Positions 28,984 through 32,182 of a stretch of 32,407 nt of DNA are shown here, piece by piece. A program made the position numbers and the translations under genes. Numbering within the stretch: position 1 is the stretch's first letter; every line of letters starts with the position of its first letter. The notes under the pieces are model-generated. The model worked only from the letters and a program-made list of their open reading frames with translations. It had not been told where the DNA came from and did no database searches. The stretch comes from an uncultured Porphyromonadaceae bacterium (GTDB lineage Bacteria > Bacteroidota > Bacteroidia > Bacteroidales > Muribaculaceae), in contig CAMWUY010000007.1 in the NCBI GenBank assembly GCA_947177615.1, positions 1 through 32,407 on the forward strand, in the 5' to 3' direction.

Positions 28984-30366
28984 CTATATATGTTTCCTCA
29001 GTCGAGCCACCGGGATCTGCTTGGCATCACGATACTTGGCTATGGTGCGTCGTGAGAGCGTGTAGCCCCGTTTCTGCATCTCCTCACATATTTGAGCGTC
29101 ACTGAGCGGGTGTTTCTTATCCTCATCCTCTATAATAGCCTCTATCTGTGCCTCTATCTGCCGGTTGGTCAGCGTCTCCCCCTGCTCCTCATCACCCTTG
29201 ACGTTTGAGAACAGTTCGCGCAGAGGCTTGACTGCTCCCCACGGTGTCTCGACATACTTGTTGTTTGTGGCACGCGATATAACCGAGAGATCTTGACCTG
29301 TGATGGCGCTGATATCCTTAATCATCATCGGACGCAACGTGTAGACATCCCCGGTCTCGAAATATTCACGTTGCAGGCTTACGATTGCTGTCATGACTGT
29401 CAGAAGTGTCTTCTGGCGCTGACGCACATTCTCGATAAATTCCCGGGCATTATTGTATCCGGTCAGTGTGAAGGCCTTATCCCGTCGGACTCCACGCTTG
29501 CGCATCGCCGGGTCATTGACCGCATCTACATAGCTCTGCTCTATGCCGAGTGCCGGAAAGCGGTTGTTGACCGTCACGGAGAGAAGTCCCTCCTCATTGC
29601 TGACCGTGAAATCAGGATAGACGATGGCTGCCGCCGTCTCACGTTCGCTACCGTAAGCCGCCCCGGGTTTGGGATTGAGTGTGCGTATGAGCCTGCCCGC
29701 TGCCGTGACACGTTCTGGAGAAATCTTCAATCCGGATATAATCTTATGCGAATGCTTCTTTGTATAAGCGTCAAAATAGTCTCTCAATATATTGATGGCG
29801 TCATTGCGCTCGGTAGAGTCGGGCATTACGCCTAATTGCAGCAACAGACAGTCCTGCAGATCGACAGCACCGACTCCGGCGGGATCCAGACCGCGAACCA
29901 CCTCCATCGCCTGCTCAGCCACCTCCTCCGGTATCTCGACGCCTGTGTTAATGGCTAAGTCATCAAGTATATTGCGTAGCGGGCGTTGCAACCGTCCGTT
30001 TGAGTCAAGGTTGCCCACTATATACCGGGACATTTCAGTGACATCCTCCGGCAGACGTTGTTCTCCGATCTGTGTCAGCAGATGATCATAAAGCGTCTCG
30101 GACTCATCCGGAGCGGTAAAGTCATAATCGTTACCATCGGGAGATGAGTTGTTGATATGGCGCAGGTAATATGGGGTTTCGTCGTGTGTAGATGTGTTGT
30201 TGTCCTCATCGATACATAGAGCCGGATTTTCCTCAAGCTCGCTCTCGACTGTTTCGTCAAATTCGCGCGCATTGAGCTCCAGCAGTCTGACAAATCTCAG
30301 TTGCTGTTGCGACAGACGCAGACGTTGTGTCTGCTGCAATTCTGTTATAGCCTTCGGTCCTGCCAT
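28984..30366 (-). CDS. rpoN: RNA polymerase sigma-54 factor RpoN
   Basis: Sigma factor that directs transcription from -24/-12 promoters with AAA+ activators. The 460-aa form has the glutamine-rich N-terminal activator region (ITELQQTQRLRLSQQQLRFVRLLELNAREFDE), then the acidic linker (EDNNTSTHDETP), the core-binding domain with GLDPAGVGAVDLQDCLLLQL, and the C-terminal DNA-binding part ending in the RpoN box SRRTIAKYR (438-446). The ORF track start (30456) adds 30 hydrophobic residues not found in RpoN; I take the ATG at 30366. TAATTTTG at 30389-30382 on the minus strand is a possible -7 box just upstream, without a matching -33 box. First gene of the leftward operon. No sigma-54 activator gene is in the window. 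Confidence 0.95.
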   Translation of the reverse strand: MAGPKAITELQQTQRLRLSQQQLRFVRLLELNAREFDETVESELEENPALCIDEDNNTSTHDETPYYLRHINNSSPDGNDYDFTAPDESETLYDHLLTQIGEQRLPEDVTEMSRYIVGNLDSNGRLQRPLRNILDDLAINTGVEIPEEVAEQAMEVVRGLDPAGVGAVDLQDCLLLQLGVMPDSTERNDAINILRDYFDAYTKKHSHKIISGLKISPERVTAAGRLIRTLNPKPGAAYGSERETAAAIVYPDFTVSNEEGLLSVTVNNRFPALGIEQSYVDAVNDPAMRKRGVRRDKAFTLTGYNNAREFIENVRQRQKTLLTVMTAIVSLQREYFETGDVYTLRPMMIKDISAITGQDLSVISRATNNKYVETPWGAVKPLRELFSNVKGDEEQGETLTNRQIEAQIEAIIEDEDKKHPLSDAQICEEMQKRGYTLSRRTIAKYRDAKQIPVARLRKHI

Positions 30367-30381
30367 ATTATAATAATAGTG

Positions 30382-30389
30382 CAAAATTA
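30382..30389 (-). promoter_or_regulatory. possible -7 box for rpoN
   Basis: TAATTTTG on the minus strand, 16 bp before the rpoN ATG, matches TAnnTTTG. No TTTG is found 18-21 nt upstream (the nearest is 12 nt away), so the promoter is weak or uncertain. Confidence 0.35.
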
Positions 30390-30419
30390 GCAATTTTTTC
30401 ACAAAAACAGAGTGTGAAA

Positions 30420-30451
30420 TTTGGGTAAATGAGATAAAAGTATTACTTTTG
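30420..30451 (+). promoter_or_regulatory. Bacteroidota-type promoter of the TPR gene
   Basis: TTTG (30420-30423), a 20-nt spacer and TACTTTTG (30444-30451), a full match to the consensus. Transcription would start near 30457, leaving a leader of about 130 nt before the ATG at 30588. The leader contains two hairpins that exclude each other: CCGGA-tgtg-TCCGG, and a longer pairing of TGCCGG with CCGGCA. Confidence 0.75.
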
Positions 30452-30587
30452 CACATAAGTATGGAGGTCAGAGCGTCTGTCCGTCACATCGGCTTGAAAT
30501 ATGCCGGGGTGTATATCGATACCGGATGTGTCCGGCAGCGTTTTAAGACTCGAAATGTAATAATCAACAAGAAAAGTTTAAATTGCA

Positions 30588-31268
30588 ATGGCAGAAAACA
30601 ATAATCGTCAGGATGTCAATCCGATAGATGATATCAACGATCGTCTCACCAATGCCGGCCAGAAGGTGGCGGCCAATAAGAAAATCATCTACTGGACTCT
30701 CGGCGTTATAGTTGTAATCGCAGTATTTATCGGCTCCTATTTCTGGATTTATCGCAATCCGGGTCTCAACAACTCGTGGGCCGCTTACAATCAAGTAGAG
30801 CAGACAGCTCTCGGCAACGATACTGTCCGTGCGCGTGAGTATGCCAAAGTGGCTGACAAATACGGTCATTTCGATGCCGGCAATGTGGCGGCTCTCTCTG
30901 CAGCCGAGGCTTACTATTCTATCGGCAAGTATGACGAAACCGTCAAGTATCTTGGCAAGTTCAGCACCTCCGACGAGGTTCTCGAGTCGCAGGCTAAGAT
31001 GTTGCTCGGTGACTCATACGTCAATCTCAAGAAATATGACGATGCCATCAGCGCATACAATGCATGTATCCGCAAGGCTGCCGGCAACCCTCAGATCGTC
31101 CCCGTGGCTCTCTATAAGGAGGCGAATGTCTACGACGAGCAGAAAAATTATCAGGCTGCACTCGACTGCTATACCCGCATCAAGACCGAGTTCCCGACAT
31201 TCCAATTCGGCAATGGTATGGCCGTGGAGGCCTATATTGCTCGCGAAGAGGCTCGCCTCGGCAAGTAA
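30588..31268 (+). CDS. membrane-anchored TPR protein (YfgM-like)
   Basis: A 226-aa protein with a cytosolic N-terminal stretch, one TM helix at about 33-54 (IIYWTLGVIVVIAVFIGSYFWI) and a C-terminal tetratricopeptide solenoid. Repeats are visible in the pattern AAEAYYSIGKYDETVKYL, LGDSYVNLKKYDDAISAY and KEANVYDEQKNYQAALDCY. The layout resembles YfgM, a Sec-translocon/chaperone-associated protein, but TPR proteins diverge quickly and only the architecture is safe. Expressed from its own promoter (30420), divergent from rpoN, with a clear terminator 49 bp after the stop (31317). Confidence 0.85.
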   Translation: MAENNNRQDVNPIDDINDRLTNAGQKVAANKKIIYWTLGVIVVIAVFIGSYFWIYRNPGLNNSWAAYNQVEQTALGNDTVRAREYAKVADKYGHFDAGNVAALSAAEAYYSIGKYDETVKYLGKFSTSDEVLESQAKMLLGDSYVNLKKYDDAISAYNACIRKAAGNPQIVPVALYKEANVYDEQKNYQAALDCYTRIKTEFPTFQFGNGMAVEAYIAREEARLGK

Positions 31269-31364: not shown

Positions 31365-31748
31365 ATGATAGCTAAAATATTGGTTGTGTTCGGAAGTGGC
31401 GGCCTGGGAGCAGTCTGTCGCTATCTTATAGAGCTGGCGATGCGTCACTCCATGATGGGGCTCTCCACGTGGGTGATCAACTCTATAGGTTGCTTTCTGA
31501 TAGGCCTCTTTGCCGGCTGGCTGGTCAATAGCCATTGCGGCTGGAGTGTCAACGGCAAGGAGTTTTTCCTCTTAGCCTCCATGACAGGTTTCTGCGGTGG
31601 CTTCTCTACCTTCTCTTCATTTACGCTGGATTGTGTTCATTATTTCGAGAAGGGACAGGTTGAGATATGGGTGATATTTGCAGCGATGACTGTTTTCGTA
31701 GGTCTCTTCGGGTGTGCTCTGGGTTATTGGCTCGGACGCCACATTTGA
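31365..31748 (+). CDS. crcB: fluoride channel CrcB/Fluc
   Basis: Small dual-topology membrane protein (127 aa, four TM helices) that exports fluoride. Family motifs: GSGGLGAVCRYLIE at the N-terminus, WVINSIGCFLIGLFAG with the pore Asn, and GFCGGFSTFSSF with the phenylalanine box and sodium site, then a last TM ending LGYWLGRHI. Length is normal. A fluoride riboswitch is often found before crcB genes in other bacteria, but I see none in the 96 bp between the TPR gene and this one, which is mostly occupied by the terminator hairpin. Confidence 0.94.
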   Translation: MIAKILVVFGSGGLGAVCRYLIELAMRHSMMGLSTWVINSIGCFLIGLFAGWLVNSHCGWSVNGKEFFLLASMTGFCGGFSTFSSFTLDCVHYFEKGQVEIWVIFAAMTVFVGLFGCALGYWLGRHI

Positions 31749-31788: not shown

Positions 31789-31832
31789 TTAGACCCTTTC
31801 CCACAATATATGTGTTGTGGAAAAGGGTCTAA
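31789..31832. repeat. long inverted repeat between crcB and the ncRNA
   Basis: TTAGACCCTTTCCCACAA (31789-31806) and TTGTGGAAAAGGGTCTAA (31815-31832) are complementary over 18 bp with one mismatch, loop 8 nt. It has no T tract at the 3' side in either direction (A7 follows on the plus strand), so it is not a standard terminator. It may act as a transcription or RNA-processing barrier between converging crcB and ncRNA transcripts. Confidence 0.75.
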
Positions 31833-31863
31833 AAAAACAGCCCTGCTTCACAGCAGAACTGTT
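31831..31863 (-). terminator. intrinsic terminator of the minus-strand ncRNA
   Basis: On the minus strand AACAGTTCTGCT-GTGA-AGCAGGGCTGTT forms a 12-bp stem (two G-U pairs) directly followed by five further T (seven in a row including the stem end). This is a textbook factor-independent terminator and ends the transcript from the promoter at 32151-32182. Confidence 0.85.
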
Positions 31864-32145
31864 CGAACTAATCAAGTTATTTCTACAAACCTAACATAAA
31901 CGATTAGTGATTACAACTAATACCTTTGATTTACACCTTTGCTACCTATGGATGCAATTCCCATAAACGGAGCTAATATCTTATCTTATTCCTATCCCTC
32001 ACGAGGGTTCTGAAAATGCTCCGGATTGCGATGATCTCTTAAAGCGGTTGAGAGATCTTGATCTGCATCCTTAACCTATATTTCTATTTTACCTTAATAT
32101 GAATTTTAGTTATACCAAAGAGTATGGTGTGCTATCTCTATTGCA
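31831..32145 (-). ncRNA. predicted structured small RNA, about 315 nt
   Basis: No reading frame is found here, but a full-consensus promoter (32182-32151) and a strong terminator (31863-31831) on the minus strand frame a transcript of about 315 nt. Its sequence folds: GATCTCT pairs with AGAGATC (plus coordinates 32051-32057 with 32033-32039), CCCTC with GAGGG (32007-31996), and GGATGCA with TGCATCC (32070-32064 with 31956-31950) as a long-range stem enclosing the other two. AUAACUAA near the 5' end can pair with UUAGUUGU near the 3' part. A long rod with an enclosed core recalls 6S-type RNAs, and a Bacteroidales-specific class (for example the Bacteroidales-1 motif) is another option; I cannot decide from memory. 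It is not tmRNA, RNase P RNA or SRP RNA by any motif I can recognise. Confidence 0.65.
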
Positions 32146-32150
32146 CATTG

Positions 32151-32182
32151 CAAAATTAGCATAACTTCTGTGATTTGTCAAA
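32151..32182 (-). promoter_or_regulatory. Bacteroidota-type promoter of the ncRNA
   Basis: On the minus strand TTTG (32182-32179), a 20-nt spacer and TAATTTTG (32158-32151). Full consensus with the same spacing as the tRNA and TPR promoters. The start would fall near 32144-32147. Confidence 0.75.

Follow-up and report, generated by a model that had tools for sequence, protein, structure and literature searches.

Close to the right-hand end of contig CAMWUY010000007.1 (assembly GCA_947177615.1, from an uncultured Porphyromonadaceae bacterium that GTDB places in the Muribaculaceae), the whole of which (32,407 nucleotides (nt)) was analysed here and is called the window, the minus strand carries the signals of a stand-alone gene for a small RNA (sRNA). 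A promoter of the Bacteroidota type, TTTG-N20-TAATTTTG, comprises a −33 element TTTG (32182–32179) followed after 20 nt by TAATTTTG (32158–32151), the latter lying within the −7 box TAATTTTGCA (32158–32149). The pattern TTTG-N17-21-TAnnTTTG occurs four times on the two strands of the window against 0.27 expected in shuffles, and in a genome sample from the same genus no 6-mer is more strongly enriched ahead of genes than TTTGCA (35 vs 6.1 expected). The predicted RNA of ~316 nt (32146–31831) has a 5′ end placed by promoter spacing and a 3′ end placed at the T run of an intrinsic terminator (31864–31831), whose arms GAACAGTTCTGC-TGTGAAGCAGGGCTGTTTTTTT pair in the minimum-energy fold and close a GUGA tetraloop of the GNRA type. 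No open reading frame (ORF) of at least 30 amino acids lies on the minus strand between promoter and terminator; the arrangement proposed in a first-pass annotation of this DNA, an RNA with a promoter and terminator of its own, is confirmed from about 32146 to 31831.

The most conserved part of the element is a core, AATCGTTTATGTTAGGTTTGTAGAAATAA (31905–31877, minus strand), which matches once in the window where none is expected. The core TATGTTAGGTTTGTAGAAA, counted through the motif TATGTTAGGTTTGTAGNAA (up to one mismatch allowed), is present in 64/111 genus genomes, usually as one copy, and the reversed pattern gave four matches over all genomes together. Promoter, core and terminator are common to the aligned homologs, most of which read AAATCGTTTATGTTAGGTTTGTAGAAATAATTTTGATTCGCA in the core, near-invariant across 20 letters, an invariance that is partly a product of picking homologs by exact core. 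Two homologs found without the exact motif illustrate this: that of genome G042 reads GTGTTAGGTTTTGTAAAA, and one in G085, diverged in its core, lies at the syntenic place with a promoter, AGGU sites, GATTCGCA and a GUGA-capped hairpin. The 50 aligned homologs used for the promoter count, which were picked for having a TAnnTTTGCA box, all have TTG at the matching place (TTG...TAATTTTGCA in 50/50). The terminator hairpin shows compensatory changes at 11/11 pairs with 95.5% of cells paired across 45 homologs, values reached by 0/500 shuffles and by no slid version, and nearly every homolog has GUGA or GGGA as the loop. Because the core occurs in so many genomes against so few reversed hits, and because the terminator covaries, the element stands far above chance.

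A covariance model of the 3′ module (E ≤ 0.01) matches 110/111 genomes of the genus, 96/247 of the family and 8/198 across the order, counts that include a second, related RNA class described below. Named records carrying the motif are mostly Muribaculaceae-type gut assemblies; motif matches outside (L069, L074, L103 and L110) look like chance, the flanking core letters being absent, and no relevant DNA matches were found in phages or plasmids. The window-type RNA also occurs in tandem, as two copies in one genome of the genus (L055, 891–1004 and 1466–1578, plus strand) and as three copies in another genus (L180, 1198–1309, 2045–2157 and 2815–2925, minus strand). No Rfam family matched at gathering score, including the 6S and Bacteroidales-1 models named in the first-pass annotation, and at E ≤ 10 only chance matches appeared, mostly owing to a long palindrome just beyond the terminator. 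This palindrome, AGACCCTTTTCCACAACACATATATTGTGGGAAAGGGTCT (31791–31834), follows immediately on the terminator and separates the RNA from a convergent crcB gene. On these grounds the window element is best described as a small-RNA gene, predicted from sequence to be transcribed, of an RNA family outside Rfam.

Upstream of the core, little is held constant. The stretch from promoter to core varies freely among homologs in sequence and in length (about 90–370 nt), and a DNA search in relatives brought up mainly the last third of the window element and nothing resembling its body. Three stems had been put forward as evidence of a structured RNA, and all are present: a long-range stem pairing GGATGCA (32070–32064) with TGCATCC (31956–31950), and within it GATCTCT (32057–32051) with AGAGATC (32039–32033) and the hairpin CCCTC-GTGA-GGG (32007–31996); a further stem joins GGAGC with GCTCC. 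Stems alone prove little here: by our own estimate a 317-nt sequence would contain several 7-bp inverted repeats by chance, and the fold of the whole RNA, terminator included, is only a little more stable than those of shuffles (z = −2.04, with 4/100 shuffles as good). The long-range stem, singled out in the first-pass annotation, closes a domain (32070–31950, minus strand) that is missing from compact homologs, L002 and L052 among them, and is thus a lineage-specific insert; conservation of paired bases among relatives, which the same proposal demanded, is seen in the terminator, and no close relative of the body was found in which the pairing of this stem could be compared. At the 5′ end of the RNA a hairpin GTGC...GCAC (32146–32129) occupies a place where homologs tend toward a different stem, and a 5′ hairpin in many homologs receives modest support (summed pairing 629.5 vs 569 ± 18 in shuffles).

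The body is rich in AGGU. In the window RNA five sites (32094–32091, 32077–32074, 31947–31944, 31938–31935 and 31925–31922, all minus strand) precede a sixth inside the core (31892–31889), the fourth lying within a block, AAAGGTGTAAA, common to many homologs. AGGT is the most enriched 4-mer of homolog bodies (143 vs 51 expected, z = 15.6), its reverse complement ACCT occurring 7 times, and remains in excess when the pre-core block is masked (79 vs 32.4 expected); single bodies also show it, with five sites each against 1.1–1.4 expected in L003, L007 and L049. The sites are predicted to be somewhat less paired than anagram 4-mers (0.48 vs 0.41, P = 0.001).

Most homologs sit 290–550 nt behind a same-strand DUF6377 gene (PF19904, 1.5e-63), an arrangement found in another genus too, where folP follows; outside the family DUF6377 genes stand in other contexts, with no such RNA seen behind the gene. 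In the window, the contig ends ~220 nt upstream of the promoter, and a coding end visible there (32407–32340, minus strand, PILSPFLLLMRDIRFRLFNLIN) is unlike DUF6377. The sole DUF6377 gene found in this genome is on another contig and has a different gene behind it; either the 5′ neighbour of the window RNA differs from that of other homologs or the contig end hides DUF6377. On the other side, many homologs have the window’s downstream neighbours, namely the convergent crcB (31365–31748, plus strand; Pfam CRCB, 4.6e-21), a gene for a TPR protein (30588–31268, plus strand), each of which lies by several homologs, and an rpoN-like gene (28984–30456, minus strand), named by eye from its sequence with no family search, a counterpart of which also adjoins L063, L079 and L143.

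The 3′ covariance model also finds a multi-copy element at five places in this genome besides that of the window RNA. With the core ATCGTTTCATGATGTTAGGTTAGTT, it is present at L169 (1300–1413, minus strand), L170 (1300–1420, plus), L171 (419–532, minus), L172 (1–109, plus) and L173 (380–492, minus), and three copies stand in tandem at L174 (1570–1953, plus), apparently behind GAACTTTT...TAATATC. It consists of AGAAATCGTTTCATGATGTTAGGTTAGTTCGAAAAAGTATTATGGAAAACAC and a GNRA-capped hairpin, lacks the TAnnTTTGCA promoter and, judged by eye, lies behind a GAACTTTT...GTTNTAATATC motif. Its core has about 22 letters in common with that of the window RNA and resembles it with CAUG added, so holding an anti-start triplet as in R1′, the seed of the FopS RNAs of Bacteroides, which are 65–70 nt long, number 12–15 per genome, carry an anti-start CAU in the seed and act together with the RRM protein RbpB (PMC11697453). 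Against SusC-like starts the multi-copy core pairs with a mean energy of −13.7, compared with −10.9 ± 0.5 for shuffled cores, none of 200 of which equalled it; against starts in general the effect is weaker (94 strong pairs vs 68 ± 13). The class looks like a Muribaculaceae counterpart of FopS. Past the hairpin in L170, L174 and L184, the DNA appears by eye to hold, on the opposite strand, the end of a gene for a sigma factor of the extracytoplasmic function (ECF) type, and such a factor could control the multi-copy class. A stretch common to three relatives, at L262 (710), L263 (775) and L264 (744), combines GTTAGGTTTGTTAGTAGA with a hairpin and a TTTGC box resembling a promoter, and may represent a third RNA class that carries the motif.

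The window RNA itself is not filed as FopS because it fails the FopS seed test and differs in length and copy number. Like FopS it has a σABfr promoter and a conserved stretch ahead of the terminator (in FopS a single-stranded seed), and the R1′ consensus GTGTTTTTCATAGTATTAGATTTAAGGTTAACAAA contains AGATTTAAGGTTA, which is near the AGATTTTTAAGGTTAGTAAA-type pre-core blocks of some homologs (PMC11697453). Unlike FopS it is ~316 nt long and usually present in one copy, without the many short paralogs per genome, and its core CGTTTATGTTAGG has neither CAU nor CAUG, nor is its complementarity to SusC starts clear; Rfam scans gave no FopS match at gathering score or at E ≤ 10, the presence of a FopS model in the library being unconfirmed. 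With GibS of B. thetaiotaomicron, an RNA of 145 nt whose seed lies in the 5′ part and whose promoter is of the PM2 type (PMC7366714), it shares a stand-alone intergenic position, a similar size class, a conserved candidate seed (long and unstructured in GibS) and an intrinsic terminator, but it is conserved at the 3′ end and has a promoter of the canonical type. BatR of the same species, in which a structured 5′ part comes first and the active module immediately precedes the terminator, and for which 5′ processing has been shown (PMC10861873), is alike in its structured 5′ part, in the place of its functional region and in a σABfr-type −7 box, and unlike in sequence and neighbours.

A fast-changing body combined with a near-invariant core and a terminator hairpin is the mark of a regulatory RNA. 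We consider that the window element is probably a stand-alone gene for an sRNA acting in trans through its core and AGGU sites, and, by analogy, post-transcriptional regulation of the FopS or BatR kind appears the most likely mode. The earlier suggestion of a trans-acting or Bacteroidales-specific RNA is upheld as to an unannotated, stand-alone and probably trans-acting RNA of a Bacteroidales-specific class, found mainly in Muribaculaceae. Several results weigh against the reading we favour. The core is not predicted to be single-stranded (mean unpaired 0.32 vs 0.45 for the body), and no conserved pairing partner for it appears in the predicted folds of homologs; a local hairpin with the stretch behind it is strong in one clade only and not maintained elsewhere. 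Pairing of the core with 25 SusC-like starts of the genus reached −9.9 vs −9.3, which 8% of shuffled cores equalled, and in the relative G087, of which about 0.8 Mb was sampled, 561 gene starts (called by a simple rule, some of them wrongly) gave a mean energy lower than for shuffled cores (z = −2.0) while the strong tail held 20 pairs vs 14.6 ± 6.4. Starts of the adjacent DUF6377 gene gave no significant pairing, and both SusC starts, as general targets, and the DUF6377 messenger RNA (mRNA) start were accordingly set aside. The AGGU enrichment is partly inherited, the homologs not being independent, and a search of 16 genus genomes (G000–G015, several incomplete) turned up no RRM_1 protein, the candidate for an RbpB-like partner, compared with one or two such proteins in 4/10 other Bacteroidales genomes.

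Protein titration and mRNA pairing are about equally likely as ways in which such an RNA would act, and each taken as a complete account is tentative. A sponge, in which the AGGU sites, the core strongest among them, would sequester an RNA-binding protein while the body served as spacer, is possible though far from assured. In the sponges CsrB, CsrC and RsmZ the body evolves fast, varies in length and repeats a single short motif many times, and the sense-strand AGGT excess, the lower predicted pairing of the sites, the free variation of the body and the lack of clear complementarity between core and start regions are as such a role would have them. However, the motif is AGGU rather than GGA in hairpin loops, the sites are not displayed in conserved hairpin loops, one near-invariant core stands out, minimal homologs have two pre-core AGGU sites only and some one or none, no candidate protein has emerged, and RRM proteins were missing from the 16 genus genomes searched. 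An antisense RNA with a classical seed, its core pairing with the start regions of a few mRNAs, is likewise a doubtful but live prospect: GibS, FopS and BatR all pair with start regions (PMC7366714, PMC11697453, PMC10861873), the core is related to one whose seed matches SusC starts, and certain single starts pair well (for example L310, −16.8 kcal/mol). Yet strong pairing among the 561 starts did not exceed that of shuffled cores, the core lacks the anti-start CAUG of the related class, and genome-wide neither ACCT nor AACCTA is enriched upstream of genes. Near-complement sites, ACAAACCTAACAT, in relatives belong mostly to the related RNA class, with scattered hits besides and no recurrent orthologous target.

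Three further explanations are unlikely. A 6S-like identity, one of those first suggested, would make the element a promoter mimic bound to RNA polymerase; it is very improbable. The element is intergenic and in a similar length range to 6S RNA (RF00013) and 6S-Flavo (RF01685), and UAGGUUUG within its core agrees with the −7 consensus TAnnTTTG, but neither model matches the window stretch at E ≤ 10, the 5′ and 3′ ends do not pair with each other, a closing stem around a central bubble is not common to the minimum-energy folds of 16 homologs, and both spacing and length range widely. That RF00013 detects no other 6S RNA in these genomes, with nothing above cut-off in 31 relatives, is a point in favour, although this silence says little because the model missed a Bacteroides control too. 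The related class reads UAGGUUAG, which breaks the TAnnTTTG consensus; for the same reason, by inspection, we rejected the core as an internal promoter (TAGGTTTG). That the RNA is a processed 3′ untranslated region or read-through product of the DUF6377 mRNA, with no gene of its own, is improbable: it does lie directly behind same-strand DUF6377 in most homologs, but the promoter box keeps a consistent place in all 50 aligned homologs, although the box was itself the selection criterion, and several homologs, and the window as far as is visible, have another upstream gene. There is very little likelihood that a mini-ORF in the core (AUG UUA GGU UUG UAG, encoding MLGL) yields a functional product or stalls ribosomes. 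Its letters are nearly invariant in the genus, and two copies in genus g42 change UAG to UAA; the stop is nevertheless lost in L181 and L188, the ORF is absent from G042 and G085, and no reading frame is conserved around it.

Taking the element as a trans-acting sRNA, we propose that RNA polymerase would start near 32146 from the σABfr-type promoter and stop at the terminator hairpin, which covaries and has a GNRA cap. Function would reside in the 3′ module, made up of the near-invariant core (U)UAUGUUAGGUUUGUAG and the terminator, which the further AGGU sites would assist while the rest of the body evolves freely and gains lineage-specific hairpins. Partners would recognise the short sites singly, and the body would therefore be free to vary. 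The core may engage a shared partner, either an RNA-binding protein used by the related multi-copy RNAs as well or a set of mRNA targets.

No earlier report of this RNA, and no description of small RNAs in Muribaculaceae, was found in the literature searched, most subscription journals lying outside its coverage. The Muribaculaceae dominate the mouse gut, and the family described here offers a predicted sRNA gene that is usually single-copy, syntenic and widely kept. If AGGU is a protein site, it would point to an RNA-binding protein of Bacteroidota not known so far. A more speculative and rather unlikely extension is that the AGGU RNA titrates an unnamed partner that also serves the multi-copy short RNAs directed at SusC starts, in Muribaculaceae without RRM proteins; if this were true, one RNA would set the activity of many repressors of polysaccharide uptake. 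Together with the multi-copy class, the family suggests that the sRNA control of SusC transporters in Bacteroides has a counterpart in a genus whose genomes, where searched, yielded no RbpB-like RRM protein.
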